Shown here: positions 8,223-49,901 of the stretch, one piece after another
Numbering within the stretch: position 1 is the first letter of the stretch
Layout of the letters: every line of letters begins with the position of its first letter
Assembly (NCBI RefSeq): GCF_025370785.1
Contig: NZ_JAMXFA010000037.1
Coordinates: 1 to 64,000, forward strand
Origin: Laspinema olomoucense D3b
Lineage (GTDB): Bacteria; Cyanobacteriota; Cyanobacteriia; Cyanobacteriales; Laspinemataceae
Length of the DNA: 64,000 nt
Direction: 5' to 3'
Program-made: the position numbers and the translations under genes
Notes under the pieces: generated by a model
The model's input: the letters and a program-made list of their open reading frames with translations, nothing else
What the model was told of the DNA's origin: nothing
The model's database searches: none

Positions 8223-10034
8223 CTAAAATTCAACTTTAATTTCTTCATCACTTTTTGGTTCCGGTAGCGGAAACAATTCTTCTACTAAAGCGCGTCGTTC
8301 TTCAAATTGGCTACGACGGTCTGAGGCTGACACCGCACAAGCATTGGTCGCTAACCGTTGAGCCAACCAAGGCCATTTTGATTCAGCCCAGCTCATTTCA
8401 GCAATATCTGCTGCCGGAACTTTTATTTTTTCTCGCCAAGGGATATAGGCTTCACCGCGCCCTTGAGAGGCGGGAGAAATGACGATTGCTTCCCCAGTCT
8501 GCAATTTTAAAAATTGGGCGGGTTCAAACAGATAGCGTTTTTGAAAATTTTGGTTCCAACTCCGGGAATTTCCTCCTTTAGAACGGCTGCGAGATTTGGA
8601 GGTGATTTCAATCTCTTCTTCCCCCAAGTAATCCGCAAAAAACTTGGCTGATTCTCCATCTTGAGGGTTGAAAATAAACTTTGTTCCAGTTGCTCCTATG
8701 ATAGCACGAGATAATTCTCGCCCATAACTTTTTTGGAGTTGCGCTAAATTTTGAAATCCTAACAACCCAACAAATCCATCTTCCCGGTTTTCATTCAACC
8801 AGTTGACAATATTGGGCAAATACAAAGTGGGCAATTCATCCAAGGCAACCACTAAAGGGTCAATCCGAGGGGTCGTGCGAGCCACATTGCGCGATACAAT
8901 TAAATGTAACATAGCCGCAAGTAAAGGACCGACAATATCTCGGTTGTTACGGTCTAACCCAAACACAACTAACTGTTTGCCTTCCAAATCCAAGGGTAAC
9001 GAAGTTTTTCCACAAAACGCGCCAATAAAATCTCGCTTCAGAAACCGTTGAAACATCCGTTGGGCGGTCCCTACAATTCCAGCGACCGTTTTTTCCGAAT
9101 CCTTCACACTAATAACTTGAGATAAAGGTCGAGAAGTCCAGACTTTTAATTTGGATTGAGAGGCCAGTTCCAAACGAGCAGGCAGGTTGCTCAAACTCAA
9201 GAGGGCTTGAGCGGTCATCAAATCACAATATTCAGCTTTACCCGTCAACTCTCCCACGGCTTTTGTAACTAACAAAATCCCTTCGACTAAAGAATCTCCG
9301 GCTTCTTCAAAAAATTTATCAGAACTAGCTTGACCCCCACTCCGGTCGAAATTGCGACTGACGACTTGGGCAAATTGACCCGCTACCACCGCGTCCTCAG
9401 AATCCGATAAAAAATCTAACGGATTGCAGGTTTCTGATTCAGGGAAACCCGGGGCAAACACCCGCAGGTTATATCCCCGTTTAATCGCATAAGCAGCCGC
9501 CCGAGAAGTCTGTGCCGGATATTTAAAGTCGTACAAAACTACAGGAAACCCTTGGTCTAAGGCCGAACGAATAACCGGGTCGATCGCACTGAAGGTTTTG
9601 CCGCTCCCTGGGGCACCACTAATGGCAACCCCACGCTGAACATCGGGAAGATACAGAGTTTTGTTAGCAGAACCCCTCAACCCCGATTTTTTAGGGGTTT
9701 TTTCAGCAATTCCTTGAGAGTGCCAAATTTTCTGCCATTGCGATCGCATCGCCGGAGGCGTTCCAATATATAAAGCCGCTTGGTTGCGCCGGGGGGATTT
9801 AATTTGGGTTTGGGCTTTTTTACGAGCGCTTGCTCTCTCGCGAGCGCCACCCCAATACCCGCTGGCAATTCGACCCGCCTTTTTGCCGTTGCTCATCCAT
9901 TGGACCAAGACAATCGCCGCTGCACAACCGAGCAGCACTAACCCGGTGGTCCCTTGAAAGTTTTGTGTTAGTGCCTGAACAGTGTGAGAAATCGGACTGA
10001 CAGAACTACCTTGACTGGTTGAAGTTGACATCAT
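8223..10034 (-). CDS. virD4: VirD4/TraG-type conjugation coupling protein
   Basis: The 603-residue protein is the type IV coupling ATPase that links the relaxosome to the secretion channel. It has one N-terminal membrane segment (TGLVLLGCAAAIVLVQWM, about 30-47), Walker A GAPGSGKT at 140-147 and Walker B VVALDE at 395-400, followed by the family-typical LPTLYLPNIVNWLNENRED and GFQNLAQLQKSYG. A second membrane helix, present in many VirD4 proteins, is not seen. Length fits the family. MMST offers two adjacent start codons. It lies downstream of the envelope-complex genes. No relaxase partner was found in the window. Confidence 0.9.
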   Translation of the reverse strand: MMSTSTSQGSSVSPISHTVQALTQNFQGTTGLVLLGCAAAIVLVQWMSNGKKAGRIASGYWGGARERASARKKAQTQIKSPRRNQAALYIGTPPAMRSQWQKIWHSQGIAEKTPKKSGLRGSANKTLYLPDVQRGVAISGAPGSGKTFSAIDPVIRSALDQGFPVVLYDFKYPAQTSRAAAYAIKRGYNLRVFAPGFPESETCNPLDFLSDSEDAVVAGQFAQVVSRNFDRSGGQASSDKFFEEAGDSLVEGILLVTKAVGELTGKAEYCDLMTAQALLSLSNLPARLELASQSKLKVWTSRPLSQVISVKDSEKTVAGIVGTAQRMFQRFLKRDFIGAFCGKTSLPLDLEGKQLVVFGLDRNNRDIVGPLLAAMLHLIVSRNVARTTPRIDPLVVALDELPTLYLPNIVNWLNENREDGFVGLLGFQNLAQLQKSYGRELSRAIIGATGTKFIFNPQDGESAKFFADYLGEEEIEITSKSRSRSKGGNSRSWNQNFQKRYLFEPAQFLKLQTGEAIVISPASQGRGEAYIPWREKIKVPAADIAEMSWAESKWPWLAQRLATNACAVSASDRRSQFEERRALVEELFPLPEPKSDEEIKVEF

Positions 10035-12602: not shown

Positions 12603-13436
12603 TTAGAGAATAGATTGAGCTTTAACTAGAGCAGACTCTTCCCATTCAATCACCGGGCTGTTAAAAGCACCAAACTGTAAGATTCGATTGATTAAAGCAT
12701 CAGAAAGTCCCACAGCCCGTGCGGCATTGGACGGTATTTGACCCATCTCAACTCGGTTGATAAAATCATTTAACCTTTGGGCTAAAGCTCCCTGTGGGTC
12801 TAACAATTGTTGATTTAAAGCCCGGTTTACGCCTAACTGAAACTGTGACAAATCAAAATGTTCAAAAGAAGAAGTTAATTGAAGACGGGAAGAGGGTGAC
12901 CCATCCAAAGCCCCGTCAGTGATGGGTAAATCTTCTATAGATTCGGGAGATTCTGGGGAAGATGAATCTAACTCAATCTTCACAACTGGGTGAGAATGAG
13001 TCTGACTCGGATACAACCGGAACACATATACATTGGCACTCCCCTCTGGTGTTTGAGTGACTAAAGTCAGCAGAGAATCCTGGGCTGGAGGCAACCCCGG
13101 AAAATCAATCGGCTCAATTTGTCTTAAATGGACGACTCGCGCACCGGGCCGATCGCAACTTTGATTATTCAATCCCTCCAAACAGCCATCCACATCAACC
13201 GTTGCGAAGGAGGGATTGTCGAGCCAGACTCTTTTGATAACCTCCCCGGTGGGAATGACACTGATATTTACCCCTTGGCCTGGGATTAAGCCAATTGAAA
13301 CTGGCGCATCCATTTCGCCTCGGGCGGATGAAGCTGGCACGCGCAAAATCCCTGATGCAATCGCTTCACCGGAGAGTCCAACCAGCAACCCAGCAAATAA
13401 AACATTTCCTACAATTTGATGCCAATGCTTTTTCAT
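12603..13436 (-). CDS. VirB9/TraK-like outer-membrane-complex protein
   Basis: The 277-residue protein has a signal peptide (VLFAGLLVGLSGEAIA, about 13-28) and a beta-rich N-terminal domain. Its spacing matches VirB9/TrbG/TraK: PGQGVNISVIPTGEVIKRVW at about 53-72, a DFPGLPPAQDSLLTLVT segment, and EGSANVYVFRLYP at about 131-143. The C-terminal 110 residues are helical and unlike the usual VirB9 tail. Its ATG overlaps the stop of the VirB10-like gene by 4 bases (ATGA), which argues for coupled synthesis of the two partners of the channel core. The assignment rests on position and fold-like spacing. Confidence 0.55.
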   Translation of the reverse strand: MKKHWHQIVGNVLFAGLLVGLSGEAIASGILRVPASSARGEMDAPVSIGLIPGQGVNISVIPTGEVIKRVWLDNPSFATVDVDGCLEGLNNQSCDRPGARVVHLRQIEPIDFPGLPPAQDSLLTLVTQTPEGSANVYVFRLYPSQTHSHPVVKIELDSSSPESPESIEDLPITDGALDGSPSSRLQLTSSFEHFDLSQFQLGVNRALNQQLLDPQGALAQRLNDFINRVEMGQIPSNAARAVGLSDALINRILQFGAFNSPVIEWEESALVKAQSIL

Positions 13437-15358
13437 GATTTAAATTCAAAAGTACCGTGGACAAAAAGAGTAACGGGGGTACCCGCTTCAACCACCCATA
13501 GGGGGGATTGCTCCTCCAATTGTTGTAATGCCAAGCGTTCCCGTTCCTCCAAGCGTTGGGAAAGAGCCCCGAACCCACCGGATAAAGCAGCGCCGGTGAT
13601 AGATTGCCATCCTCCCCGCCCCTGGGAACGAGAATACTGAGTAGAGGAAAAACTGCCCGAGGACGAAAACTGCTCAATGATGTCCGGTTGGCTCAGGACA
13701 TCCCCCACTCGGGCTAAAGCACCCACTGCAAAGGCTCGGGCATCCCGATTGGCCATCCCTTCTGAGGAAGCTGACCGTTGTCTAGCAATCAAGGGTTGTC
13801 CATCCTTCCCTTGAATAGATAATATGGATGGAGGTAGCCGATATTCTTGATGCCCATCCACCAAGGCGACTGCTGTGGCCTCCACTACCCCATTGGAGGC
13901 GATCGCCATTGTTTCAAAGATGACCCGAGTCCCGACTGGGAATAACACTTTTCCATCTGTCGAAGTCAAGGGTTCAGTCAGTTTGACGACAAACAAATCT
14001 GATGACCCCTCAGAAGGATTCGCCCATAAAGAGGTCAGCAACTCTCCCCCAAGCGATCGGCCAATCTGTAACTGATTCTGAGCAAGCGTCCCATTCAGCG
14101 ATTGAGTGGCCAGTCTACTCGCAGAAGATGACTTTACTCCGGCCTGGGTTTGGAGTGGGTTGGCCTCGAATGTTGTTCCCATGTCATCGGGAACGTTAGC
14201 AAGCTGAACAGTATTTTGTATTACTGGTTTTGCTGCTAAAATATTTTGTTCTTCGGGTAAGGGTTGTACTCTGGGATCTGCTGCTAAAATATTTTGTTCT
14301 TCGGGTAAGGGTTGTACTCCCTCAGACGAGGGTTGTACCAACTCAGCCACAGGGATAGTATCCACAGAAGCCACTTCAAACGGCTGTTCTAAGTGAGATA
14401 TTTCCGGAACCGGCATTTGACCATAAGAACCCAACTCCCCAAGCAAAGCATACTGCTGCATTGGATCGATCTCTTCTGGAACCGGACCCGTTTCCAGTTC
14501 CCCGATGGGTTCAGGTTCCCGGATAGGTTCAGGTTCCCGGATAGGTTCAGGTTCCCGGATGGGTTCAGGTTCCCGGATGGGTTCAGGTTCTCGGATGGGT
14601 TCAGGTTCTCGGATGGGTTCAGGTTCCCGAATAGGTTCGAGCCGAGAAGTTTGGGGCCGAATAGGTTGAACGGGTCTAGGTGCCGGTGGTGGAGAGGGTC
14701 GAGGCGGTGAAGATGGCGCAGGCGGTGTTGATGTCATCTCCGGTTCAGGCAAATCTGGCTGTTCAAGAGCGTCCTCTTCCTCACCTGGTAAAGTTTCTGG
14801 AGATTCTACACCCGTCGGAACTGTCTGGCGACGACGCTGGGACCAATCCTCAAGTTGCTGGGATTGTCGCCCAAGCGCCAACTGAGTTTTCAATTCCCCA
14901 ATTTCATTTTCGGAAGTATCAGAATTAGACTGGCTGGCGATCGGTTCATCCGTTGACTCTTCTGTAGAAGAGGGCGCTCGCCCAATGGGAGTATTCATCA
15001 CCCCATTTAAAAAAATTGCCCCGATTGTAAACAAGACAGCCATCATCAATCCAACCGCACCAAATTTAGCAAAAGGATTCCTTGAAAAAGTGGGTTGGGT
15101 TTGATTTTCATGAGGATTATCTTCACTTTCTATTAAGTCTTGCGCCGTAATCTTTAACTCTCCTGATTCTTCTTCATCCGTTACATTAACGGAGGGCGAA
15201 GATCGGTCAACCACATCTTCATTTTTGATTTGAGGCTCCGTCTTAGGGGTCTCATCAGGATTAAGCTCAAAGAGTTTGGCAATTTCTTCTTCACTCCATA
15301 AGGGTCCAGCCCGGTCAAACATTTCCTCTATCGGCTCAGACTGATTGTTAAAAGTCAT
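13433..15358 (-). CDS. virB10: VirB10/TrbI/TraB-like channel protein
   Basis: The 641-residue protein spans the envelope in conjugation channels. It has an acidic cytoplasmic N-terminus (1-95), one membrane segment (FGAVGLMMAVLFTIGAIFLNGV, about 99-120), and a long proline-rich periplasmic stalk. The stalk includes seven REPEPI hexapeptides (about 242-284). The C-terminal domain (about 445-640) is typical of TrbI/VirB10: GRSLGGELLTSLW, FPVGTRVIFETMAIASNGVVE, YRLPPSILSIQGKDG. Pro-Ser runs (PPAPSSPPRPSPPPAP) precede the repeats. It is the most clearly assigned envelope subunit of this operon. Confidence 0.85.
   Translation of the reverse strand: MTFNNQSEPIEEMFDRAGPLWSEEEIAKLFELNPDETPKTEPQIKNEDVVDRSSPSVNVTDEEESGELKITAQDLIESEDNPHENQTQPTFSRNPFAKFGAVGLMMAVLFTIGAIFLNGVMNTPIGRAPSSTEESTDEPIASQSNSDTSENEIGELKTQLALGRQSQQLEDWSQRRRQTVPTGVESPETLPGEEEDALEQPDLPEPEMTSTPPAPSSPPRPSPPPAPRPVQPIRPQTSRLEPIREPEPIREPEPIREPEPIREPEPIREPEPIREPEPIREPEPIGELETGPVPEEIDPMQQYALLGELGSYGQMPVPEISHLEQPFEVASVDTIPVAELVQPSSEGVQPLPEEQNILAADPRVQPLPEEQNILAAKPVIQNTVQLANVPDDMGTTFEANPLQTQAGVKSSSASRLATQSLNGTLAQNQLQIGRSLGGELLTSLWANPSEGSSDLFVVKLTEPLTSTDGKVLFPVGTRVIFETMAIASNGVVEATAVALVDGHQEYRLPPSILSIQGKDGQPLIARQRSASSEGMANRDARAFAVGALARVGDVLSQPDIIEQFSSSGSFSSTQYSRSQGRGGWQSITGAALSGGFGALSQRLEERERLALQQLEEQSPLWVVEAGTPVTLFVHGTFEFKS
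14508..14636 (-). repeat. 18-bp coding tandem repeat (REPEPI)
   Basis: About seven 18-bp units encode a rigid Pro/Glu/Arg stalk in the VirB10-like protein. Units differ mainly at third positions. Copy number is likely to vary by slippage, which would change stalk length. Confidence 0.85.
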
Positions 15359-17963: not shown

Positions 17964-20669
17964 TTAAGAAGCAATTTGTTGAGAAAACTTTGTTAGACCC
18001 ACCAAAGAGTTACCGGACCGTTCTAAAATTTCTCGACGGGCTTTTTGTTCTTCGGGGTTATTCGCTAAAGCTGCCAAAAGTTGCCAACTAGGATAGTAAC
18101 GGCAAGGCGTATAAGTTCCTTGAGATTCTAAAAGCCATTGAGAATAACCCTCTGTTGGGTTTGGAAAGAAGTTGGGCGAAGCATTTTTTTCGATAAGAGA
18201 AGTGGGATAACGAAAAATTTTCACAAAACTTTCCACCGCTGAAGGCTGAATTCTTCCCACCAACCGGGTCGTTAAATTCTGGAGAATTTTAGCTCCGGCT
18301 GAAGAAGAAGCAATCGTATCGGGGTCTTGGGCCGATAATAAGACCCGAATTCCACTTTTGGCCCCATTTGCACAGAGTTTTCCCAGCAAGTTGGCGATAC
18401 TGTCAAACTGGAACAAAATTGGTGCTTCATCTACAAAGAAAATTGAAGCAGAAGCGGCTAAAGCTCGACGGAGTGCAGCAGAGTAGGCCGCTAAACTGAT
18501 AATGGCTGCATCTTCATCATTAGATAGATTCCGTAAGGCAAATACTAACAGTTGGGAATCACTCCGGAAGGTTGAAGGAGAAGAAATCGCCTGCCCGACA
18601 CGAGAGGTTAACCAAAATCGCAACCGGAGTTTAATCCGCTCAATTGCCGTTTGAGTATCCCCCGGAATTAATTCTAATTGTAACCGTTCTCCGGAACAAT
18701 AGGAGATAAAATCAACTAAAGTTGGCATATTCTGCCAAGCTGTAGACCCAATCCCTTCTACATAAGCCCTTGCATAACGATTGCGAATTTGATTGTCTGT
18801 GAAAAAGGCAGTTAATGCTAAACCCAACACCGACCGAATCGTATCGGTCAAAACGGGATCGGCAACCGCCCCCAGTTTTGACCCGACGACCATTGCCATT
18901 AGGGCCGATAACAAAAAGTCTTGATAGTCTTGAAACCTTTCGGTTTGCAATTTTCCTTCCAGTCCTTTGAGGTCAGGGATTTCAAAGAGATTACTAGATT
19001 CTGAGCCAATATCAAAATAGGCTCCTATATCTTTCAAAAACCGGGTTAAGTCATCAAATGTACTACTACCATCTGGTTTTGGATAATCCATAATGACCAC
19101 GGGCATCTGATGAGCTAACGCCTGAATAATAACTCCTCCCACCAAAGTTGATTTACCTCCTCGACTTGTACTGAAAAACCCTATATTTTGATGTTGGTTG
19201 TATAAGTCAAGGTAAACCGGATTACCTCCTTCTTGGGAAATCAACTCTAATCCCATTTTGTCTGTCGGTTTAGTGCGGACTAAAGGCATTAATCCCGGCA
19301 CTTCTGAGGATAAATAAAGTTGCCGACGATTAAACGGCGTACTCAATAATTTATCCCACACCAACGGCAAACACTGCAACCAGATTTTCCAAGGGTATTC
19401 CGTTTCCCGCAATACCCATGCTGGAGGCAAAAATAATGATTCCAAATATCGACAGGCTTCATCTAACTCTTGGCGCGTTTTTCGATAGACTAAAAAAACT
19501 ACCCCAACATGAACAGGAATTGAACCTTCAAAAATTTCTTCTTGGGCCGCTATCGATTTTTTGAGGTTAAGTTGCGCGTTCACGTCAACCGAATTGGATT
19601 GCAACGATCGCTCTTGAGCCGTCATCGATTGTTTAACCAATCGCTGCATATTGGTTTTGACCAGGGTATCGCTACCTCGGGTCAGTTGGCAGACTATCTC
19701 CGTATCCTGGATGCGATCGCGGGAAATGACCGACCACAGATAACATAGCTGCCGTCGCGCATCCGGCCATCCTCCCGGTTTTTCTACAAATGTTAGAGGA
19801 GCAATATAGCGCTGATTGAGATAAATCCAGCGGCGGTCAGGAATCGGCACCGAACTCTCCGACTGCATCAAGATGGTCACGGGATGATACTTAGAATAAA
19901 TTTCTTCTCTGACTCCTGTTTCATCAAGCACCAACAACTGAGGAATCGACACCGGAGGCGTCTGGTTAAACCGCTTCCATAAGTGACTCCATAATTCTGG
20001 GTCGCTTAAAGGTCGAACAGACAATCCCATCCCATTGGTTAAAAGTTGATGCCAAATTTGATATCCATCGTGGTAAGCTGATAGCAACACTTGTTCTACT
20101 CGTCGGTATTGGCGTTCTTCTAGCTGTCCGGTAAATGAATGCCACCACCGTTCCCCTCGGGATAATAGCTTCTCAATCCAGTCCGTTTTTTGATGAGCAA
20201 ATGCCTCAACGGTATAAGTAACATACAACCGTAAAAATACCGGCTTCCGTTGGCCCCGTTCCGTGAGTTCTCGCAACCGGATCCGCTCCGCATAAAGTAA
20301 ATATCGCAATTCCGTATTAGAACAACCTTCAAATAAATCTTGAAGTTCTTGTTCACGCTGAATGCTATCTGCGAAAGAGCCTAAATTTACGGTCAATGTC
20401 TCACCAGACGGTAAATCTTTCAATCCTGCTTCAATTGCTTGAAGGGTAGGTTCTACTTCTTCATCAATGAGGGTAGAATGAATTCCTTGACAATCAAATC
20501 CAAAAATTAGTTTGAATTGGTGTTCTCCTTTTCTTAGTAAATACGCTCCAATAGGAGAAGATGCTAAATCAACCCGAACTAAAGATGCTAAATTGACAAC
20601 ATCTTCTAACGGAGTAAACCGTTGTTTTCCCCAACCCCTATCAATAAATTTTTTTCCAACTTTAGTCAT
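17964..20669 (-). CDS. virB4: VirB4/TraC-type secretion ATPase
   Basis: The 901-residue protein powers pilus assembly and transfer. I choose ATG 20669 (MTKVGKKFIDRGWG) because it overlaps the upstream stop as ATGA and has AGGAG 6 bases before it; the frame extends 38 codons further but without such support. The Walker A region is FSTSRGGKST with Lys 506; the first loop residue is Ser, not Gly. Walker B is SIFFVDEAP with Asp 747. LLSAQDPDTIASSSAGAKIL, then LTTRLVGRI, match the C-terminal motifs of the family. No membrane segment is seen. The preceding gene encodes a VirB3-like protein, as in many T4SS operons. Confidence 0.88.
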   Translation of the reverse strand: MTKVGKKFIDRGWGKQRFTPLEDVVNLASLVRVDLASSPIGAYLLRKGEHQFKLIFGFDCQGIHSTLIDEEVEPTLQAIEAGLKDLPSGETLTVNLGSFADSIQREQELQDLFEGCSNTELRYLLYAERIRLRELTERGQRKPVFLRLYVTYTVEAFAHQKTDWIEKLLSRGERWWHSFTGQLEERQYRRVEQVLLSAYHDGYQIWHQLLTNGMGLSVRPLSDPELWSHLWKRFNQTPPVSIPQLLVLDETGVREEIYSKYHPVTILMQSESSVPIPDRRWIYLNQRYIAPLTFVEKPGGWPDARRQLCYLWSVISRDRIQDTEIVCQLTRGSDTLVKTNMQRLVKQSMTAQERSLQSNSVDVNAQLNLKKSIAAQEEIFEGSIPVHVGVVFLVYRKTRQELDEACRYLESLFLPPAWVLRETEYPWKIWLQCLPLVWDKLLSTPFNRRQLYLSSEVPGLMPLVRTKPTDKMGLELISQEGGNPVYLDLYNQHQNIGFFSTSRGGKSTLVGGVIIQALAHQMPVVIMDYPKPDGSSTFDDLTRFLKDIGAYFDIGSESSNLFEIPDLKGLEGKLQTERFQDYQDFLLSALMAMVVGSKLGAVADPVLTDTIRSVLGLALTAFFTDNQIRNRYARAYVEGIGSTAWQNMPTLVDFISYCSGERLQLELIPGDTQTAIERIKLRLRFWLTSRVGQAISSPSTFRSDSQLLVFALRNLSNDEDAAIISLAAYSAALRRALAASASIFFVDEAPILFQFDSIANLLGKLCANGAKSGIRVLLSAQDPDTIASSSAGAKILQNLTTRLVGRIQPSAVESFVKIFRYPTSLIEKNASPNFFPNPTEGYSQWLLESQGTYTPCRYYPSWQLLAALANNPEEQKARREILERSGNSLVGLTKFSQQIAS

Positions 20670-21004
20670 GGACTTCTCCTTTTTTTCTGAGGTAAACTGG
20701 GCGAACTGACTAAAAGGGGAGTAAATTTGGCAAAGCCTCGCGACCACTTGGGAACCGGAATAAACTTCCTTAAGTACCACCACCCTCCTTTAGCGGTGAG
20801 AATCCACCAGGTGGAGATTCCCCAGAGAGCCACCGACCCCGTCACCACCCAATTCTGACCTAACCCCACTTTAATTAAGTAATAAGATGCTCCAGCAATG
20901 GCCACCCAGGGCAACAACTGATCCGCAGGAAAAGGGCCAATATTGGGTTGTTTTCCTAAAGCTTGGTTGACTTTTTTGAATGACGGAGTTGATGGCATAA
21001 TCAT
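20666..21004 (-). CDS. VirB3/TraL-like small membrane protein
   Basis: The 112-residue protein has two adjacent membrane segments (LLPWVAIAGASYYLIKVGLG, about 28-47, and VVTGSVALWGISTWWILTA, about 51-69) and basic tails. Size, topology and its place directly before virB4, with a 4-base stop/start overlap, match VirB3/TraL. The N-terminus (MIMPSTPSFKKVNQALGKQP) has the charged pre-helix character of VirB3. Confidence 0.65.
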   Translation of the reverse strand: MIMPSTPSFKKVNQALGKQPNIGPFPADQLLPWVAIAGASYYLIKVGLGQNWVVTGSVALWGISTWWILTAKGGWWYLRKFIPVPKWSRGFAKFTPLLVSSPSLPQKKRRSP

Positions 21005-22148: not shown

Positions 22149-22676
22149 CTAAAAGCGATTAGAATCATCTTCCCAAGTAGCAGTAGCAAACGCCTCTGGA
22201 TAAAGCCGGGAGACCTCAATTTCTTCTACCGGAGTTACCCGTGAACCAGCTTTGACGTCATAGTATTGGTCTGATTCGATTGCGTAGGGAAGCTCACTTA
22301 AGCCTTCCCCTTCTTTAATCGCCTGCCGATTGACGGCCCATTTTACCTGTTCGGGGGGGTCATCTACCCCTAAATCCTCGACAGGATAAGGGTATTCATA
22401 ATTACGCTCGTAGGCTTCCCTACGGGTCGTCAATGCCTGTAATTCTTGATATGTTTCTGACTCAAAGTCATTAATTTGTTGGGCGCTGTATCCCAAGGCT
22501 AAATACTGTCTCTTAAATTCTTCTTTCATCGAGCCGTCCACATTGTAGTGGGCCTGGATATCCCTCGGGGCGATCGCATATCCCGCCTTCTGGGGTTCTC
22601 TAGCTTCAAGGCTTTTTTGAGTGTTTGAGGCATCCCGGGCTTGATTATATAAAGCTCTAAAATTTGTTAGATCCAT
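22149..22676 (-). CDS. hypothetical soluble protein
   Basis: The 175-residue protein is not recognised. It is charged and helical, rich in Tyr, Glu and Gln (FESETYQELQALTTRREAYE; NYEYPYPVEDLGVDDPPEQV). No signal peptide, membrane segment or nucleotide-binding motif is seen. It is divergent from the 1612-residue gene, with 80 bases between the starts that must contain both promoters, so the two may be regulated together. Confidence 0.6.
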   Translation of the reverse strand: MDLTNFRALYNQARDASNTQKSLEAREPQKAGYAIAPRDIQAHYNVDGSMKEEFKRQYLALGYSAQQINDFESETYQELQALTTRREAYERNYEYPYPVEDLGVDDPPEQVKWAVNRQAIKEGEGLSELPYAIESDQYYDVKAGSRVTPVEEIEVSRLYPEAFATATWEDDSNRF

Positions 22677-22756: not shown

Positions 22757-25700
22757 ATGATAAACTTTCAACACTTCGATAACAAGCTCAACGACTGGAT
22801 TTATATCAATGCCGAGGGAGAATCTCCTGAAATTTTGACGGAATCTCTGGAGAACACCATGCTAGAGGCTATTTTCCCGGAGGCTCCTGAAGGTACATTC
22901 AGTATCGGGGAAATCCAAAACTCGACCACTCCGGAGGATTTAGAGAAGCACCCTAACAAACATAAACTGCTCCTCGCCTCCGGAAAACGGCTGATTTATG
23001 GTCCCCAAGATTATAAGCAAGCACTCGATCGCATCTTGCCCGACGAAAAAGATAAAGCGGCTTATGCGTCACTATTCATCGGCAGTTGCTTGGACACTTT
23101 AAACAGCCGACAGGTCCGAATCTTAATCGTCGAAGATGATAGGGAATCTCCACAGGCCGGGGAAAATGGCGGAATTTTACCCAACTCGGTGGCTTTAGCC
23201 CAAGTCGGTGACTCCCACGGCAAGATTTCTCCGGCCCTCGCTCGTTCGTGGGAGGCCCTCGACGCTAAACTTCAAAACGGCCCCCGAATTGATGGACAGC
23301 CGGATGAAATTATCCGCCATGTCGTGCAACATCGAGCCTTTTTTCCTGACTTTCCCGGGGAAGCCAAAATTGCCAAAGGAACGCTCGCGCCCAAATCTTT
23401 AGATGAGCTCGACCCCAGTCAACAGCAACCTCTAGACTTAATTTTGCCACGTTCCAGTTTCAAAGGAGGAACCACAAAACCAGCCGTGGGACTCTACGAA
23501 GTTTCGATGTGGATGGGAGTCAAAGCCATTTCGGAGTGGACTCTAACTTCGACAGCGGAAGCAGGGCTGGAACGAGATACCCTACGAACCCTAGAAAAAA
23601 AGGCCGCTTTTCTGAGTGTCGAATCGAGCGATCCCCGGAAGGTGGCACAGCTTTACTGCGAAACTTACGAAAAAGCCCAAGCAGCCCGTTTAGTAAATGC
23701 CATCACCGAGGACAAGCAAAATATCTCTTCACAAGATTCTGAACCCGCCTCAACAGAACAGACTTTTTACAAAATTCTGAAAGCTGAGTTAGCCGGGGGC
23801 CATTCCCAACTCCTCGAATCCAAGTATGTGCGGGATAAGCTTGATGAGTTCCTCCGGTCTTCCCGCCTGGAGATAGCCACCGGCGGAGCAATTAAGTGGG
23901 ATAGGGCCAGCATCATCATCCCCTCCAAACAGTTGAATGATGACCAAGTTTGCGTTCCCAAATTTGATTATGGGAATGAAATCCTGGGATTCCGTTCTCC
24001 ACTGCTCTATGAAGATGCGATCGCCATCCAAACCAATACCTTTACGACGGACCTCCTCGACCCAGAGGGGCGTCCGCTCATAGGAGTCGCCGTGGTCAGT
24101 GACGAGTCCTATCCTGAATATTTAGCTCGTAAAATTGAAGAAATAACGAGTTGCTCGGTCATTTCTTCTGAAACTTTACGCGATCGCCCCACTATTGCCC
24201 CAGACGAAAATATTCGGGATTATGCGCTGCGGCTTTTCGCCGAAGAATTTATCAAAATTGAAGCCCAAACTCAATTTCAAAAAGACCCAGCAGCTTTGCA
24301 GGCGTCGGAGCTTACCCGCCTGGAAACTCAGTTGCAGCAACATTTGCATAAGCTGGAAAACACCCTAAAACATCAAACCTACTCTCAGGCAGCGGGGGAA
24401 GATTACGACGGCGACTCTAAATCCTTTGCCCTTGCCGCTTCCTATCTAAAAACGACCGCCTACCTAAAACAACAACAACATCCACAGCAGGCTCACCCAC
24501 CGACCCCCAAACTCAAAAAGGCTTCCTTTGTTGAATCCGATGGATCCCCCTCCCCGCTTACCAAAATAGCACTGCATATGGCTAACCATTGGGTCGGGAT
24601 TGCTAATAATCAAGTTAAAGCAGCCCGCTGTGTGGAAGAAGAAGTCGAAGTTTTAAGGGACTATGGATCCATTTTAGAGCAGCAAGGCTACCTACGTCAA
24701 ATTAGCTCCCATTACCAAAATCTGCTGCAAGTCGATCGCCAGGCTGTGCAGGCAAGCGAGCGGCTCCCGGATGACGTTCGATCTGACGTGGAATCTTTCG
24801 CGGCCCTACCGCTGATTGTCCCACCTGAGCAAGTTAAGGAAGAGTTAGAGGGATATCGGCAATTTATTCGGTTTAAAGTCGTACCCCCGCTACTCATTCA
24901 AAACCAGATTGCCGTGGATAGTAAAAAAAGTGCGACCCCGATGGACGAGAATATTGTCCGCCAATATGGCAACCTCATCCATCGCATTCCCAGTTATCTG
25001 CGGGAAAAAAAACATCCAGACATTTACAAAAATGGTCGAGTCATCAAGACCAATGGCTACTCGCTAAAAGAACTCAACATTCAAAATGTCAACAGCCATT
25101 TTCAAAGAACCGAGCTAGAAGCTCGTCCAATTGAGCAGTTCCGAGATTTATTCCCCAGTAAAACCCCCACGGGCGAACCTACATTTTCACCCAGCCAAAA
25201 GTTGCGGGCATTGCAGGCGAAGACCGAATTCGATCGCCTGTTCAACTACGCCAAAGAACAGGATATGAAACGCCGAAGTGAGTTGGGGCCAGTGTTGCGC
25301 TGTCAAACCGGCGGAGGAAAAGAACTGGACATTACCAATATTATTGAGGCTAATCATCCCTTAGCATTTCAAGCTAATGAATTTGAGGTTCTTTTCGTTA
25401 CCAATAAGCAGCGGCATACTTATCCGCACCATCAAGTTTTGGCCCTTGCGAAAACTGGCGAAACTTTGGCGGATGGAAAACCTAAATGGGCCGTATTGGG
25501 GACCCTCAGTGAAAGTGACCGGAAGGCTTACCAGATGGGGCCTGAAACGGTAGAAGCCAGACTAAAAGTTTTAGAAAGAAAACCGGGAATCAGCGAACGT
25601 CAATGCCAACTCTTATTTGAACGAGCCACCACAATGGCGTCAGCCTGGAGGGAGCAAGCCCAAGAACGGGGTGAACTGTTCGCAATGGCGGCGGCTACCT

Positions 25701-27595
25701 GGCATTTATGTACAACTCCAGATAATCGTTCGGCATCCGAGAAAGAGCCTGATGAGTACAAAATCCAACATTTTGTGTTTGCTGCATTTCCCGACGAAAT
25801 TGCCGAGCAATGCAAATCCTTCCAATTTCGCCAACTGATGGTGACGGGAATCCAAGGGGTCGAAGCCATTCCCACCGGCGAGCTTTCTCTGAAGATTGAT
25901 TGCGATCGCCAATTACCCCCGGATGACCCCTATTCAGGGCAACGAATTCTTTTCGCAGCAAATGAAACCGGCCACTATGAACGAGTGGGAGCTTTGAATG
26001 TCAAAGAGGCCCAACTCCCGGTCGGAACTGAAGCCCGAGGAGTCTGCACCCCAGGAGGCTGCTACAGCGCCACCCTACACATTCAAGGGTTAGCCGAACC
26101 TATTTCCCTTGGGAAAATCAACGAAAATGATTTTGCCCATGTCCCCTTGACCGGGCAAACGCTCCCCCTTCAACTGCAATCTCGCCCCTCCAGCTCCTAT
26201 CTCGTTAAAACCGAACAAGGACAACTCATTGGAGAACTCGACCACGATTCTGTCGCCTGCCTAAATGAAGCAGGAGTTTTGAGTCGGCGGTTTGCGTTCT
26301 CGGCATCCTTGCAGACCCTCGGCAAACAACAAGGCACTTACAGTTTAGCTACAACCACGAAGGGTAATACCATTGCCATCCGGAAGCAAAATACGATACG
26401 TGGAGGAGCATTCAAAAATCATCGTTTCTCCGGCCAAACCTTACGGTTGGTCATCGAAGAACAGCGGACTCAACAAATCGCGGCGGTTGTCCCTGATGCT
26501 AACGGGTCAAGGGTTTTGGGAATTTTCACCCCCAACACTAAAACTTCTAAAATTGCTCTGCAGAAAGCGTTTGGTGTAAATCCCCCAGGAGCCTCGGATG
26601 CCCAACTCAAACAAGCTTTTGAACGCGGAGCTTTAGAAAACTTAACATTTGAAGCTGAAGTTTGGGGTAAAATCTCAACCCTTTGCGTCACGATTGACCC
26701 CACCTCCATCCGCTATCCAGATATTTGGATGAGTCCGCAAACGCCAGAATCAAAAAACTCAACTCACCCACGCGATCGCCTAGAAGAGAATTTGCTAAAT
26801 ACTCTAACGACTCCGGTCATTCCTCACTATCTCGAATCCGACTCTTCCCCAAATCAACAACTTTATGGCCTGACTGTCGATGCTCACAAAATTGAACAAG
26901 TCCGGAATTTTTTAGACCAACAGCAGATTCCTTATTATCAAGTTGACCCCTCTTCGCCTGAAATCTTTTTAGAAACAGAGCGGGGATATGCAGTCTTACG
27001 CGCTTTCGAGGGTGATGTTCCTGAATCTATTAAACAAAAAATCTCCCAAAAGTATGGAGACCCTTTAAATGCCAATTTGACTGATTTAGCTACGATCAGC
27101 CCTTATCATCAGTATCTGGAATCTACTTCCCCATTAGAATCCAAAGAAGGTTTGCAGGTCCGCTCCATCCTGGAAAAATCGGCTACATCCCAGCCTTCTC
27201 GGGCGGCTGAATTTCCCCATCATGAGGCGATCGCCTCCGGCATAGCTCCGCTTACCGCAGCTAACTCAAACCCAACTCCGCAAACTGGCCTTTCTCCCCA
27301 ACAGGCGATCGCCTCCGACATAGCTCCGCTTACCGCAACTAACCCCAACCCAGAGCCTCAAAAAAGTAACCCTTCTCCACAGGAGGCAACAGTAGAAGAA
27401 GTCCGTAATTGGTATCGAGCCGCCCACCAACTGGGCAAACCGGAACCCTACCTCAAACGGATTGCTGAAATCGGTCAATCGGTGAAACAGGGCCATCCCC
27501 TTTCCGAAGCGGCAGCCACGGCGATGCACCAGGACATCCACAAATTTGTGGAACAATCCTGGCGCTCATCAAGCTCTAGAGAATCAACCCGGTGA
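22757..27595 (+). CDS. giant RNA-polymerase-like protein with DxDGD motif
   Basis: The 1612-residue protein has no signal peptide or membrane segment. Residues 549-554 read DYDGDS, the metal-binding motif of the beta-prime double-psi barrel in multisubunit RNA polymerases (NADFDGD) and of QDE-1/RdRP and phage single-chain polymerases (DxDGD). About 135 residues earlier is FRSPLLYEDAIAIQTN (R413, P415), which matches the R-x-P-x-L-H block that precedes DFDGD in beta-prime and RNP-C-H-P-G-D in RdRPs. The intervening helical insert (about 450-545) is longer than usual. Residues 830-1350 are beta-rich and unassigned. The C-terminus has a repeat-derived linker (AIASDIAPLT, twice) and a helical tail. 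No HUH relaxase or helicase motifs are present. Function is inferred: plasmid-encoded transcription or primer/RNA synthesis. Its 3' end overlaps the convergent parB by 12 bases. Confidence 0.6.
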   Translation: MINFQHFDNKLNDWIYINAEGESPEILTESLENTMLEAIFPEAPEGTFSIGEIQNSTTPEDLEKHPNKHKLLLASGKRLIYGPQDYKQALDRILPDEKDKAAYASLFIGSCLDTLNSRQVRILIVEDDRESPQAGENGGILPNSVALAQVGDSHGKISPALARSWEALDAKLQNGPRIDGQPDEIIRHVVQHRAFFPDFPGEAKIAKGTLAPKSLDELDPSQQQPLDLILPRSSFKGGTTKPAVGLYEVSMWMGVKAISEWTLTSTAEAGLERDTLRTLEKKAAFLSVESSDPRKVAQLYCETYEKAQAARLVNAITEDKQNISSQDSEPASTEQTFYKILKAELAGGHSQLLESKYVRDKLDEFLRSSRLEIATGGAIKWDRASIIIPSKQLNDDQVCVPKFDYGNEILGFRSPLLYEDAIAIQTNTFTTDLLDPEGRPLIGVAVVSDESYPEYLARKIEEITSCSVISSETLRDRPTIAPDENIRDYALRLFAEEFIKIEAQTQFQKDPAALQASELTRLETQLQQHLHKLENTLKHQTYSQAAGEDYDGDSKSFALAASYLKTTAYLKQQQHPQQAHPPTPKLKKASFVESDGSPSPLTKIALHMANHWVGIANNQVKAARCVEEEVEVLRDYGSILEQQGYLRQISSHYQNLLQVDRQAVQASERLPDDVRSDVESFAALPLIVPPEQVKEELEGYRQFIRFKVVPPLLIQNQIAVDSKKSATPMDENIVRQYGNLIHRIPSYLREKKHPDIYKNGRVIKTNGYSLKELNIQNVNSHFQRTELEARPIEQFRDLFPSKTPTGEPTFSPSQKLRALQAKTEFDRLFNYAKEQDMKRRSELGPVLRCQTGGGKELDITNIIEANHPLAFQANEFEVLFVTNKQRHTYPHHQVLALAKTGETLADGKPKWAVLGTLSESDRKAYQMGPETVEARLKVLERKPGISERQCQLLFERATTMASAWREQAQERGELFAMAAATWHLCTTPDNRSASEKEPDEYKIQHFVFAAFPDEIAEQCKSFQFRQLMVTGIQGVEAIPTGELSLKIDCDRQLPPDDPYSGQRILFAANETGHYERVGALNVKEAQLPVGTEARGVCTPGGCYSATLHIQGLAEPISLGKINENDFAHVPLTGQTLPLQLQSRPSSSYLVKTEQGQLIGELDHDSVACLNEAGVLSRRFAFSASLQTLGKQQGTYSLATTTKGNTIAIRKQNTIRGGAFKNHRFSGQTLRLVIEEQRTQQIAAVVPDANGSRVLGIFTPNTKTSKIALQKAFGVNPPGASDAQLKQAFERGALENLTFEAEVWGKISTLCVTIDPTSIRYPDIWMSPQTPESKNSTHPRDRLEENLLNTLTTPVIPHYLESDSSPNQQLYGLTVDAHKIEQVRNFLDQQQIPYYQVDPSSPEIFLETERGYAVLRAFEGDVPESIKQKISQKYGDPLNANLTDLATISPYHQYLESTSPLESKEGLQVRSILEKSATSQPSRAAEFPHHEAIASGIAPLTAANSNPTPQTGLSPQQAIASDIAPLTATNPNPEPQKSNPSPQEATVEEVRNWYRAAHQLGKPEPYLKRIAEIGQSVKQGHPLSEAAATAMHQDIHKFVEQSWRSSSSRESTR
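27226..27258 (+). repeat. dispersed HIP1-linked repeat, in-frame copy
   Basis: GGCGATCGCC followed by TCCGGCATAGCTCCGCTTAC. It lies inside the 1612-residue gene and encodes part of AIASGIAPLTA. Related copies are at 27304, 29744, 36951 and 61726. Confidence 0.75.
27304..27336 (+). repeat. dispersed HIP1-linked repeat, in-frame copy
   Basis: A second copy in the same gene, 78 bases after the first, encoding AIASDIAPLTA. The surrounding sequence (NPTPQ, NPEPQ) is also locally duplicated. Confidence 0.75.
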
Positions 27596-28522
27596 TTCTT
27601 CTTCCACTAAGGCTTGTAAATCCTTGAGCAACTTACGGAGTTTCTTTTGTTTCGTCGGGTCCTTCCAAACTTCCGATTTTTTAACCTGAGAATAAGCCTC
27701 ATCGAATTCTTGTTTTAAGGAGCGTGTTTTGACGGATTGATTCTCCAACCGATAGGCGGCAATTTTTTCTTTGATTTGGGACAAGGACAATCCCTGAGAA
27801 ATGGCTTCCTCTAATAATTCAGTCCGAACATCTGGCTGCTTCACCGTGGCGATCGCACGAGCTTTGGTGTACTCCAACTGCCCCTGCCTTAAACTCGCCT
27901 TAACATCCTCGGGCATATTGAGTAAAGGTAAGCGGTTGGTTCGGAAACTTTCTGGGGTAAATTTACCCAAGGTCTCAAAAATGCCTACAAGTTGTTGCCA
28001 CTTCTCCCCGTGGATAACATTATCCGCAGACTCCCGTTCGGGATGGGCTGACTGGTTAAACCATTTCAAAATAGTGGATTGTGGCTCAGTTAAGCGCAAC
28101 TCCAGCAGTCGTAAAATTCCTTCGGTTTCTTCAATTGGATTGAGGTCTTCTCGTTGTAAATTTTCCAGAAGCGCTACTTCCAAAACTTCTACATCGGAAA
28201 GGGAGCGCACCAACACCGGAATTTGCTTCAACCCAGCAGCTTTTGCCGCACGATATCGGCGTTCGCCAGCTACCAATTCATAACGGCCCTCACCTTGAGG
28301 ACGTACCAGAATGGGTTGCAAGATGCCGTATTGCTTAACGGATTGAATTAAATCTTGCTCTTTCTCGGGTGCAAAATAACGCCTGGGCTGTTCGGATACT
28401 TGGATCCGAACTAGCTCGACTTGCACAGGTTCAGTTTGACTAGCATCACCATTAGCTGATTCCGCTGATCCTCCAAACAGAGCATCAACACCTTTAAGTT
28501 GATAAGTTGAACGTTTGTTCAT
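27584..28522 (-). CDS. parB: ParB-family partition protein
   Basis: The 312-residue protein is the centromere-binding CTPase of plasmid partition. The N-terminal CTP-binding domain has the GERRYRA motif at 86-92 and ENLQREDLNPIEE at 120-132. A predicted helix-turn-helix region and a basic C-terminal dimerisation region follow. An insert around 155-175 (FNQSAHPERESADNVIHGE) is not typical. The start overlaps the parA stop as TAATG, so the pair is translationally coupled. The parS site was not identified. Confidence 0.93.
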   Translation of the reverse strand: MNKRSTYQLKGVDALFGGSAESANGDASQTEPVQVELVRIQVSEQPRRYFAPEKEQDLIQSVKQYGILQPILVRPQGEGRYELVAGERRYRAAKAAGLKQIPVLVRSLSDVEVLEVALLENLQREDLNPIEETEGILRLLELRLTEPQSTILKWFNQSAHPERESADNVIHGEKWQQLVGIFETLGKFTPESFRTNRLPLLNMPEDVKASLRQGQLEYTKARAIATVKQPDVRTELLEEAISQGLSLSQIKEKIAAYRLENQSVKTRSLKQEFDEAYSQVKKSEVWKDPTKQKKLRKLLKDLQALVEEESPG

Positions 28523-29286
28523 TATTTTTTATCTAGGAGTTTAGCGATTTCTTTCAAAACTTGAATGGCTCCATGAGTCCGCTGATACAGGGCTAGAGGA
28601 AGTTGTTGGGAAGAAGCATCCACAAATGCCACTGCACGGGGGACCGTTGGAAAAATAGGAGCAATTTTCGAGAGAGATTGACGGATTGATTCAACACAAG
28701 CTGACGCCTGTGCCGTTCGCGCATCGTACATTGTCGGGACAAACCCGGCAATTTGCAGTTGGCGGTTGGCTCGGCTTTTAACCCGGGAAATCGTCTGCAA
28801 AAGCAATTCAGTCCCTTTGAGGGCCTTGAATTCGGTTTGGATCGGTACCAAAACATGAGAAGCCGCTACCAGACTGATGTAACTGAGGATGCCTAAAGAG
28901 GGTGGACAGTCAATCAAAATAAAATCGTAGTTTTCTCGGACCGATTCGAGCGCATCGACCAACCGCAATTCTCGCATATCCGCCACCACTAATTCGAGTT
29001 CGGCTCCACTTAAATTGATGTTGGCGGGAACTAAATCTAAGGTCTGTTGATACAGTCCGCTATGAATAGGCAATGGCTCGGCTGCCATCAAGGATTGATA
29101 AATTGTCTCCTCCAAATCCGATGGCTCCAGCCCCAAAAATACCGTCAACGATGCTTGTGGGTCCATGTCCACTAACAAAACTTTTCGTTTCCTCAATGCC
29201 AGGTGGTATCCCAGATTATGGGTGAGAGAGGTTTTGCCCACTCCCCCGGATTGGTTAAAAATGGCAATAATCTTGGCTTGTCCCAT
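28522..29286 (-). CDS. parA: ParA-family partition ATPase
   Basis: The 254-residue protein is a Walker-type ATPase that moves plasmid copies apart. The P-loop is NQSGGVGKTSL at 11-21. In most ParA/MinD proteins the first residue of the GGxGK box is a signature lysine (KGGxGKT); here it is Ser13, while the invariant Lys18 is present. LVDMDPQASLTVFLGLE (about 38-54) and DFILIDCPPSLGILSY (about 114-129) are typical. There is no N-terminal DNA-binding extension, so it is the short type Ib-like form, but its ParB partner is of full size. It is divergent from the SAP-like gene. Confidence 0.92.
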   Translation of the reverse strand: MGQAKIIAIFNQSGGVGKTSLTHNLGYHLALRKRKVLLVDMDPQASLTVFLGLEPSDLEETIYQSLMAAEPLPIHSGLYQQTLDLVPANINLSGAELELVVADMRELRLVDALESVRENYDFILIDCPPSLGILSYISLVAASHVLVPIQTEFKALKGTELLLQTISRVKSRANRQLQIAGFVPTMYDARTAQASACVESIRQSLSKIAPIFPTVPRAVAFVDASSQQLPLALYQRTHGAIQVLKEIAKLLDKK

Positions 29287-30076: not shown

Positions 30077-30122
30077 AAATGTAGCGACATTCTGTACGAA
30101 TGCCTCTACATTTATTTTTTTT
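30077..30122 (+). terminator. terminator after the SAP-like gene
   Basis: AAATGTAG (30077-30084) pairs with CTACATTT (30106-30113), with an inner CATTC/GAATG stem, followed by a long T-run. The ATG at 30100 lies inside this structure and is not a start codon. Confidence 0.65.
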
Positions 30123-30181
30123 GGTTAACGATGGCGGAAGTCGTCCTTTATCTTTCGTCGCAAATTCCATTACTTGGTTGG

Positions 30182-30195
30182 GGCGCATCCGCGCC
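30182..30195 (+). promoter_or_regulatory. small hairpin in the second ssb leader
   Basis: GGCGC, loop ATCC, GCGCC. The stem is the same as upstream of the first ssb (3058-3071), with the loop in reverse-complement orientation. Confidence 0.4.
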
Positions 30196-30231
30196 ATTGC
30201 CTTGAACACAATTAAATCAGGAATTAACCTT

Positions 30232-30591
30232 ATGAATAGCGCCAATATTGTCGGACGAGTCGGCCAAAACCCCGAACTTCGCTATTTTGAGTCCGGACGA
30301 GTTCTTGCCAAATTTTCTGTTGCCGTAAATCGAAACTCTCGCTCAGACCAACCCAATTGGTTTGCTGTCGAACTTTGGGGTAAAACAGCGGAAGTAGCTG
30401 CCAACTATGTACAAAAAGGTTCTACAGTCGGTGTTTCTGGCTCTTTTAAGTTAGATGAATGGATCGACCCCAACACCGGAGAAATTCGTTCTCGACCTGT
30501 CATAAAAGGCCGTCGCTTAGAACTTCTTGGAAGCAAACCTGCTGATTCAGATTCCGACACTTCTTCTACTTCCAGCCCTAACGATTTCTAA
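30232..30591 (+). CDS. ssb: single-stranded DNA-binding protein, second copy
   Basis: The 119-residue protein starts at ATG 30232, at the same position relative to the leader as the first ssb; an upstream ATG in the terminator hairpin is not credible. It is a short OB-fold SSB with the core NWFAVELWGK and KGSTVGVSG, ending SSPNDF with no DDIPF tip. It is a paralogue of 3108-3464: the leader, gene, terminator and the start of the downstream gene are all duplicated. The downstream partner gene is truncated here, so this copy has no acidic-tip partner beside it. Confidence 0.92.
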   Translation: MNSANIVGRVGQNPELRYFESGRVLAKFSVAVNRNSRSDQPNWFAVELWGKTAEVAANYVQKGSTVGVSGSFKLDEWIDPNTGEIRSRPVIKGRRLELLGSKPADSDSDTSSTSSPNDF

Positions 30592-33310: not shown

Positions 33311-33341
33311 GATAAGTTGAAGGTAGTTTTTTATTTGTTCG

Positions 33342-33365
33342 AGCGGGGTGGTACCCGCTTTTTTT
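33342..33365. promoter_or_regulatory. leader hairpin of the cassette A large gene
   Basis: AGCGGG (33342-33347) pairs with CCCGCT (33354-33359), followed on the plus strand by seven T. It lies about 32 bases before the start of the minus-strand gene. Cassette B has a different-sequence hairpin with a T-run at the same place (58396-58422). Confidence 0.45.
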
Positions 33366-33470
33366 GTTTGTGGGCTGGTGACCCGAGACAAGCACTGACT
33401 AGGAGCCATCGCCGCGCTTCCTGAGTCGGACTGATGCCCGAGGGTTGCGAAATGATGCTGGCTCCCTTGC

Positions 33471-48485: not shown

Positions 48486-48488
48486 GAT

Positions 48489-48887
48489 TTAGTCATCTCC
48501 AGAAACATTGTGATAAACAGCAGTCGCCCAAAAACTAAACTCTCGGGCCAAAGCCAATCCCAATCCGGTCAACCCCAAATATTCGTCGGTGTCTAAGTTT
48601 TTGAGGGTAGTTAAGCCCTGATTGCCTGCTAAGTTGCCATCTTGCAAATTGGCAAGAGCCTGTAAACACTCAAAATATTTACGAACAACCTGCTTTTTCC
48701 CTTCTTGCCCGAGGGCTTGTTCTTCCGCTTTCAGACGCATCATGCCCCAAGTAGAAAGATAGGTATAGAGTTCAACAGCTTGACTTTTCTGCTCTTTAAG
48801 GCGAGTGTTATCTTGAGTTTGCGATCGCAACTCCGACAGCGCTTCATAAACGGGAGTCGCTATAGTCCGGGGGTCAAAAGTCATCAT
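48489..48887 (-). CDS. cmr5: Cmr5 small subunit
   Basis: The 132-residue all-helical protein matches Cmr5: AVELYTYLSTWGMMRLKAEE and EYLGLTGLGLALAREFSFWA. Cmr5 forms the inner filament that lines the target RNA in type III-B complexes. It is 3 bases upstream of the fused cmr6-cmr1 gene. Two adjacent ATG codons are possible starts. Confidence 0.92.
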   Translation of the reverse strand: MMTFDPRTIATPVYEALSELRSQTQDNTRLKEQKSQAVELYTYLSTWGMMRLKAEEQALGQEGKKQVVRKYFECLQALANLQDGNLAGNQGLTTLKNLDTDEYLGLTGLGLALAREFSFWATAVYHNVSGDD

Positions 48888-48912
48888 GGTTACTCCTAAA
48901 GTGAATCAATAA

Positions 48913-48988
48913 ACTGAAGTTGAGGAATAGCCCGCCTGGACGAGCCTTGCACTGAAGTTGAGGAATAGCCCGCCTGGACGAGCCTTGC
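48913..48988. repeat. 38-bp perfect tandem duplication between cmr4 and cmr5
   Basis: The unit ACTGAAGTTGAGGAATAGCC followed by CGCCTGGACGAGCCTTGC occurs twice without a gap (48913-48950, 48951-48988). It lies in the 174-base gap between cmr4 and cmr5, the only large gap in the upper part of the operon. Confidence 0.9.
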
Positions 48989-49061
48989 TCCGATTTCTGA
49001 ATTGTTTAGAGGGACACAGCCTTTTCATCAGCCGAGACTGTTCCAACGAGTTCTAAAAAGG

Positions 49062-49900: not shown

Positions 49901-49901
<1 letters not shown>
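49062..49901 (-). CDS. cmr4: Cmr4 backbone subunit (Cas7 family)
   Basis: The 279-residue protein starts at ATG 49901 (MTNLVYLYLLAPLHTGG), which overlaps the cmr3 stop as TAATG and has AAGGAG upstream. PSSTIRGRQRASV and GGQESLGRGFVQ are the RAMP motifs. Well-studied Cmr4 proteins have VDxPIQRExHT, in which Asp cuts the target RNA. Here the stretch is GNLLGIARESHT, with Leu24 (or Asn23) in place of that Asp. The subunit probably still forms the crRNA filament, but target-RNA slicing may be absent. Confidence 0.9.

Follow-up and report, generated by a model that had tools for sequence, protein, structure and literature searches.

What is a protein of 1612 residues with an RNA polymerase-like DxDGD motif doing beside the partition and transfer genes of a plasmid? 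A previous reading, made without database searches and referred to here as the sequence-only reading, had pointed to a double-psi-barrel signature, called polymerase function an inference, and listed among possible roles the making of primers on transferred single strands. The window, meaning the whole stretch of 64,000 nucleotides that was analysed, is part of a 67-kb contig (G000:C41) in a genome of 7.0 Mb.

An intact open reading frame with polymerase motifs

Positions 22757-27595 of the forward strand form a single uninterrupted ORF of 1612 aa, free of stops. The gene and its parts are as follows.

22757..27595 (+): very likely a single-chain two-barrel polymerase (by sequence), 1612 aa; intact ORF, 39-member alignment, hhalign to the YonO family E 2.7e-9
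23372..23392 (+): AKGTLAP, residues 206-212; K207 is the first predicted catalytic Lys, aligned with the K-G of YonO
23453..23470 (+): SSFKGG, residues 233-238; K236 is the second predicted catalytic Lys, aligned by hhalign with KSQFK of YonO
23990..24031 (+): FRSPLLYEDAIAIQ, residues 412-425, the R-x-P block; R413 in 54/56, P415 in 52/52
24092..24376 (+): insertion of the Laspinema proteins in the interval from R-x-P to DxDGD, from the spacing; limits approximate, set by eye
24401..24418 (+): DYDGDS, residues 549-554, predicted metal-binding Asp triad; D549, D551 and D553 in 57/57 and 52/52
24593..24610 (+): VGIANN, residues 613-618, aligned by hhalign with IGEYSN of YonO; G614 in 51/52
24905..24934 (+): QIAVDSKKSA, residues 717-726, aligned with the D..K motif of YonO; K724 in 51/52, D721 in 50/52
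27377..27586 (+): C-terminal module, residues 1541-1610; tail alignment, matches across protein classes, AF2 pLDDT 73

The claim of the sequence-only reading that DYDGDS at residues 549-554 follows an R-x-P block (R413-x-P) held, and a D[FYC]DGD motif arose by chance in 2/2000 shuffles of the 1612-aa protein. That reading had also taken the interval between the two blocks, about 135 residues, to be larger than normal and likely to contain an inserted domain. The R413-D549 spacing is 136 residues in the window protein, as compared to a range of 39-136 (median 56.5) over 52 aligned sequences and to 43-47 in five YonO-type proteins, and this confirms an insertion before DxDGD. The double-psi barrels that it proposed could not be assessed, as an AlphaFold2 prediction of residues 101-800, run on a single sequence without an alignment, yielded a pLDDT of 34, too low to inform on the barrels and no usable structure. 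Searches of Pfam, PHROGs and NCBIfam with the window protein returned no credible family; a match to Interferon (E 0.034) was under the cut-off of that family.

The plasmid neighborhood

The genes around the ORF include those of partitioning and conjugative transfer.

8223..10034 (-): type IV coupling protein (TraD/TraG/TrwB); PF10412 1.3e-24, PF12696 5.5e-23
13433..15358 (-): VirB10/TrbI-like protein; PF03743 E 1.9e-6, 28.3 bits against a cut-off of 35
17964..20783 (-): VirB4/TraC-like type IV secretion ATPase; TIGR02746 E 1e-9, 36.9 bits, far under the cut-off of 567; Pfam TraC_F_IV E 0.008, under cut-off
22149..22676 (-): divergent ORF upstream of the polymerase, 175 aa; similar ORFs lie upstream of several other polymerases
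27584..28522 (-): ParB, convergent with the polymerase gene and overlapping it by 12 bases; PF02195 5e-31
28522..29286 (-): ParA; PF13614 3.7e-53
30100..30591 (+): single-strand binding protein; PF00436 6.5e-25

The description of a plasmid polymerase beside parAB and a transfer operon thus held, with ParB, ParA, the VirB4/TraC-like and VirB10/TrbI-like proteins and the coupling protein all present. The polymerase gene is divergent from the transfer operon, and the ORF immediately upstream is possibly a partner or regulator. Divergent upstream ORFs of several polymerases are 175-191 aa long. The window version is 63% identical to that of L031 and more weakly similar to those of L052 (E 1e-9) and L051 (3e-6), while only short local similarity connects it to the Nostoc group L032/L109/L111, whose versions are 40-63% identical to each other. 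ORFs at the same place in L033 and L112 had no significant similarity to the window ORF.

Other features of the contig were also recorded. Type III (Cmr-type) CRISPR genes occupy 46542-54166 (-), with Cmr2/Cas10 at 51023-54166 and a RAMP protein at 46542-48485. Two large proteins at 31412-33409 and 56467-58479 (-) show weak coiled-coil-type matches and have nearly identical C-terminal ends, and a TnpB-like (IS605 OrfB) protein is located at 62188-63396 (-).

Relation to known polymerases

YonO is a DNA-dependent RNA polymerase (PMC5467207), and the same paper mentions YonO-like proteins in firmicute and cyanobacterial genomes, citing Iyer and Aravind 2012 and Ruprich-Robert and Thuriaux 2010. 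An hhalign comparison of the family with YonO and four relatives gave a probability of 96% and an E-value of 2.7e-9 over 408 columns, in a register that aligned D-G, R...K-G, SSFK/KSQFK, R-S-P, DxDGD and G..N. Eight controls, consisting of reversed columns, five column shuffles, a methylase-helicase alignment and a relaxase alignment, gave E-values of 0.33-0.87. The YonO profile in turn reaches QDE-1 weakly (E 0.011), and the likeness to QDE-1-type polymerases put forward in the sequence-only reading is supported by this route, via YonO. The Pfam RdRP (PF05183) cut-off of 23.8 was passed by two homologues (L082, 25.1; L088, 24.3); no match to this family was found for the window protein, and the family profile had no match among solved structures up to E 10. 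Matches to Pfam Rpb1 domain 2 were weak and confined to 3/39 members (best E 0.11).

Given the YonO match and its controls, the QDE-1 match and the two RdRP passes, the protein is grouped, by sequence, with the single-chain two-barrel polymerases. That it is such an enzyme is very likely, although this is inferred from sequence alone, as are its fold and polymerase activity. The polymerase identity is supported by sequence; polymerisation activity, like the function that had earlier been called an inference, is still inferred. The two Lys and the Arg were assigned their roles from what is known of the chemistry of two-barrel enzymes of this kind. According to a review of jumbo phages, one barrel supplies the Asp triad and the other two basic residues (PMC7824862).

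Distribution and conserved residues of the family

Homologues were found in 59/291 genomes of the order at E <= 0.001, counting C-terminal-only matches, and the family profile had matches in 40/386 genomes drawn from the phylum. Laspinema palackyanum D2a has the closest homologue (L031) on one of its contigs, at 88-90% identity. Among 70 plasmid records with homologues, 33 were typed conjugative, 15 mobilizable and 22 non-mobilizable. Five scans of viral contigs, each with a different query, detected no relative. Homologue frames range from 884 to 2762 aa, and 30/31 fetched loci hold the DxDGD motif in a long ORF, the exception (L012) being a broken copy. Further broken homologues exist (G228:C44, G130:C220, G585:C2).

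Loss of the three aspartates in homologues had been named as an outcome that would refute the sequence-only reading. The test was passed, as Asp 549, 551 and 553 are kept in 57/57 ORF pieces with a match to the family profile; YonO and its four relatives keep them too. K207 and K236 are kept in 56/56 pieces and R413, likewise singled out beforehand, in 54/56, with Cys instead in L085 and L086. These counts cover pieces that match the profile across the position, without requiring the motif; some pieces may be partial copies of one gene. In an alignment of 39 members, K207, G208, K236, G237, R413, P415, N427, D549, D551, G552, D553 and K588 are invariant. This invariance is partly the result of selection, because the members were picked among ORFs holding [DN]xDGD, with 39 of 43 such ORFs aligned after removal of three truncated sequences (L006, L027, L053) and one long one (L038). 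When eight relatives and five YonO-type phage proteins were added, R193, K207, G208, K236, P415, D549, D551 and D553 were the same in 52/52 rows and R413 in 50/52. In a FastTree tree of these 52 sequences, the window protein falls in a clade of 23 (support 0.63), itself nested in one of 26 (support 0.97).

Several homologues differ in their surroundings or added domains. A 2448-aa homologue from Gloeothece (L033:19995-27341) carries a fused RNase H (PF00075, 2e-29), and a SLOG-like stretch of the same protein recurs, by eye, at the C-terminus of L045-L047. The genome from which the window comes also encodes a paralogue (L082:5016-11253, contig C98; 1191 aa), which starts ∼28 bases after an 879-aa frame with AlkB-type oxygenase, DUF4326 and SLOG domains, and the two likely form one operon. 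Three short homologues of 884-895 aa (L084, L085, L086) each follow an unknown same-strand frame of 441-546 aa in an operon-like arrangement.

A C-terminal module shared with unrelated proteins

The last 70 residues of the window protein form a module, newly described here, that recurs near the C-terminus of otherwise unrelated proteins, including MobF and MOBP relaxases, Toprim primases and strawberry-notch helicases. A blastp search from the window protein alone matched the tail of L034 (E 2e-10), and an HMM built solely from polymerase tails found 30 further ORFs among 3649 (E 2e-30 to 3.5e-5). These 30 exclude polymerases, the window's own piece (L074) and the pair L043/L044, of which L043 is a polymerase piece. 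The figure of 30/3649 is not a rate because loci were fetched partly by module search. Matches to the module profile are present in 33/291 genomes.

A Pfam scan was carried out on 24 module-bearing ORFs other than intact polymerases. Toprim/DUF3991 proteins accounted for 10/24 and strawberry-notch helicases for 5/24, two of the latter with an N6-methylase domain above cut-off. Single cases (1/24 each) were a TrwC relaxase with helicase and Toprim, an AAA_30 helicase with Toprim, a MobA/VirD2 relaxase and a Prim-Pol protein just under cut-off (22.0 vs 22.8 bits); 5/24 had no family above cut-off (L043, L044, L094, L104, L108). The distance of the module from the C-terminus is 0-168 residues, except in L103 (∼305), and AF2 predicts that the module forms three helices (pLDDT 73).

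The polymerases found to carry the module are the window protein, L031, L032, L007, L008, L013, L014, L050 (the same gene as L111), L109 and L110; the module occurs in the same long frame as the polymerase in G181, G245 and G228:C27 as well. It is absent from polymerases of other clades in the set and from ten members of the same clade (L052, L054, L055, L016, L056, L057, L058, L005, L033, L038). Of the traits of polyvalent proteins, an accessory module common to unrelated enzymes of conjugative elements is present. As to domains of different activity in one chain, only the polymerase and the module were seen in the window protein, and an RNase H in the Gloeothece homologue. By eye, polymerases and other proteins also appeared to share a further C-terminal domain of ∼80 residues, located beyond the module; it is not claimed, because an HMM of the polymerase version found only polymerases, L043 and L044.

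A C-terminal end signature as a lead

The signature [EQS][RLIMV] at the last two residues was set after polymerases and module-bearing proteins had been viewed. It fits 21/41 polymerases and 13/33 module-bearing ORFs (a group that includes L001, L002, L043 and L044), as compared to 21/287 background ORFs of >=200 aa, which run from stop to stop and are not all real genes. The window-type L001 and L002 do not fit, the window protein ending in RESTR. On relaxases not used to set it, the signature fits 1/6 in an earlier set and 23/29 MobV relaxase ORFs; the query for the latter was one of the earlier six, and one of the 29 (L115) is 91% identical to it. For VirB4 the count is 1/30. A second pattern, set after the six-relaxase result and consisting of G, then [ILVMAE], then [EDSQ] near the end, fits 11/29 relaxases vs 23/405 background ends. 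With relaxases that are interrelated, a short pattern and a window protein that does not fit, the signature is no more than a possible lead.

Many cyanobacterial MobV relaxases (L115-L144) end in a stretch rich in Gln, Lys and Arg plus GLSL, GFSR, ELEL or IER. Near the coupling protein, at 5963-7729 (-), a 588-aa protein with no Pfam or NCBIfam family ends in SGANLER. This end fits the MobV-type signature, and the protein is possibly a relaxase or a transferred protein.

Linkage to transfer genes

A relative of the window VirB4-like protein is present in 41/48 polymerase genomes vs 52/243 others (Fisher p 4e-17); this p-value is too small because the genomes are related, and the counts cover 93 of the 96 genomes in the VirB4 tally. 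At the level of loci, a VirB4 relative is on the same contig for 30/68 polymerase loci and within 50 kb for 27/68. The 68 loci were hand-picked and cover 48 of the 59 homologue-bearing genomes, leaving out far-C-terminal-only matches and small broken pieces and merging rows of one locus. The linkage extends to a chromosome-sized contig of 6.8 Mb in G220, where two polymerase copies are located 29-30 kb from a VirB4 relative. A relaxase gene, MobV or other, was found 0.8-9 kb from the polymerase in 6/6 hand-picked plasmid regions, and plasmid pCHRO.01 (G148:C3) has both a polymerase and a Toprim primase.

The relaxase of the window plasmid is unidentified, which counts against a role in transfer. 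The two PF03432 relaxases of this genome are on other contigs, a PF13154 search for the plasmid's relaxase found nothing, and neither did a MobV query against the genome at 1e-20. A PF01076 search carries no weight, its controls having given no match. The F plasmid pED208 transfers ParA, ParB1 and SSB (PMC8406263); these are the kinds of genes that flank the window polymerase, and this was counted for the transfer reading.

Proposed role in conjugation

The reading that we favor, by a modest margin, is that the protein is a polymerase of conjugative elements that is carried into the recipient and makes RNA on the incoming strand; its fold, activity, transfer, template and product are all inferred. 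Two double-psi barrels in one chain would form the active site, with K207 and K236 contributed by the N-terminal (beta-like) barrel and R413, D549, D551 and D553 by the second (beta-prime-like) barrel, and the Asp triad would bind magnesium ions. By docking to the relaxosome, to the coupling protein or to the secretion channel, the C-terminal helical module would let the polymerase accompany the relaxase and the transferred strand into the recipient. RNA made there on the single strand may serve as second-strand primers, and perhaps as first transcripts.

Relaxases are known to accompany the strand into the recipient, and TraC1 (of RP4) and SogL, both Toprim primases, are transferred (PMC5512222). 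A tail common to DNA-transfer proteins suggests that the polymerase goes along when plasmid DNA passes to a new host. RNA synthesis on the incoming strand is favored on two grounds: the polymerase has the module in common with two types of relaxase and with further enzymes of priming, and the Gloeothece homologue is fused to RNase H, which would suit an enzyme that handles primers. Among the earlier guesses, action on the transferred strand is the one favored by the shared module, although this is an inference, the template is undetermined and the product may be primer or transcript. Transfer of the polymerase is itself a question on which the case stands level, being inferred without transfer data; there is no evidence that the module is a transfer signal, and many relatives lack it.

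An unlikely alternative is that the protein is a plasmid-dedicated transcriptase of the resident cell, which would recognize its own promoters, express transfer or plasmid genes and never be transferred, the module merely binding a common plasmid partner. YonO, as a DNA-dependent RNA polymerase, may do likewise for its prophage (PMC5467207), the polymerase gene diverges from the transfer operon, and the ORFs upstream of several polymerases could be regulators. Against it, the module is common to two relaxase types and Toprim proteins, known relatives of which act on or travel with the transferred strand (PMC5512222). We hold out little hope for a primer-making enzyme of vegetative plasmid replication unlinked to transfer. 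The tail shared with Toprim proteins, the homologue fused to RNase H, and the nearby SSB and parAB genes would suit such an enzyme; its co-occurrence with and proximity to VirB4, including the two copies in the chromosome-sized G220 contig, would not.

Still less probable is a role like that of the eukaryotic silencing enzymes, with an RNA-dependent RNA polymerase copying transcripts for defence, counter-defence or control. Some relatives do match Pfam RdRP and the YonO profile matches QDE-1, but the nearest tested relative, YonO, is DNA-dependent (PMC5467207), and no Argonaute or Dicer is annotated in six plasmid regions, whose gene tables are incomplete. That the protein is a catalytically dead or structural relic of a polymerase is very unlikely, since the catalytic residues are kept over deeply diverged clades, even though some homologues are broken.

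If the favored reading, RNA synthesis by a transferred polymerase, is true, then conjugation resembles some phage infections in being able to deliver an RNA polymerase. Such delivery would go some way towards explaining how a single strand comes into use after its arrival in a new host, and would connect conjugation with a single-chain relative of the cellular enzyme. The module is a testable candidate for a substrate signal of cyanobacterial type IV secretion and could serve to catalogue the proteins that accompany a plasmid. The wider set of single-chain two-barrel polymerases is also useful for studying how RNA polymerase and the eukaryotic silencing polymerases arose.

Comparison with known systems

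The open-access literature searched (titles and abstract starts, without subscription papers or preprints) contained no such polymerase on conjugative plasmids and no shared module. YonO-like proteins in cyanobacteria are known; within that literature, the transfer-linked branch is apparently new. In the 2017 survey of polyvalent proteins by Iyer (PMC5512222), N4-type polymerases are confined to N4-like phages and prophages, and cyanobacteria are said to have few polyvalent proteins. The word "YonO" is absent from the main text of the survey, and no two-barrel polymerase is named in the sections bearing on it.

Like YonO of Bacillus phage SPbeta, the window protein is one chain with both Lys, R-x-P, DxDGD, G..N and D..K in the same order. 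Unlike it, YonO is phage-borne and has 839 aa, too short to hold the C-terminal module, and the identity in the profile alignment is 12%. The motif order is also that of the QDE-1/RdRP-type polymerases, as seen via the YonO profile, and two homologues score above the Pfam cut-off, whereas the window protein lacks a credible Pfam match and has a bacterial, conjugative setting. The beta and beta-prime subunits of cellular RNA polymerase share DxDGD, an upstream R-x-P and basic residues from the other barrel. The window protein differs from them in being one chain, with only weak matches to Rpb1 domain 2 in its family.

Further parallels are with N4 virion RNA polymerase, RP4 TraC1 and SogL, each a giant nucleic-acid enzyme with accessory parts, encoded by an invader for its start in a new cell, although transfer is inferred in the present case. 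A bolder reading, to which we give slightly less than even credence, would make the window protein the conjugative counterpart of N4 virion RNA polymerase: an RNA polymerase of the cellular, two-barrel superfamily injected by the T4SS with the relaxase and the single strand, its RNA synthesis preceding the recipient's enzymes. The module, and perhaps the end signature also seen on MobV relaxases, would then be a transfer signal of cyanobacterial conjugation.
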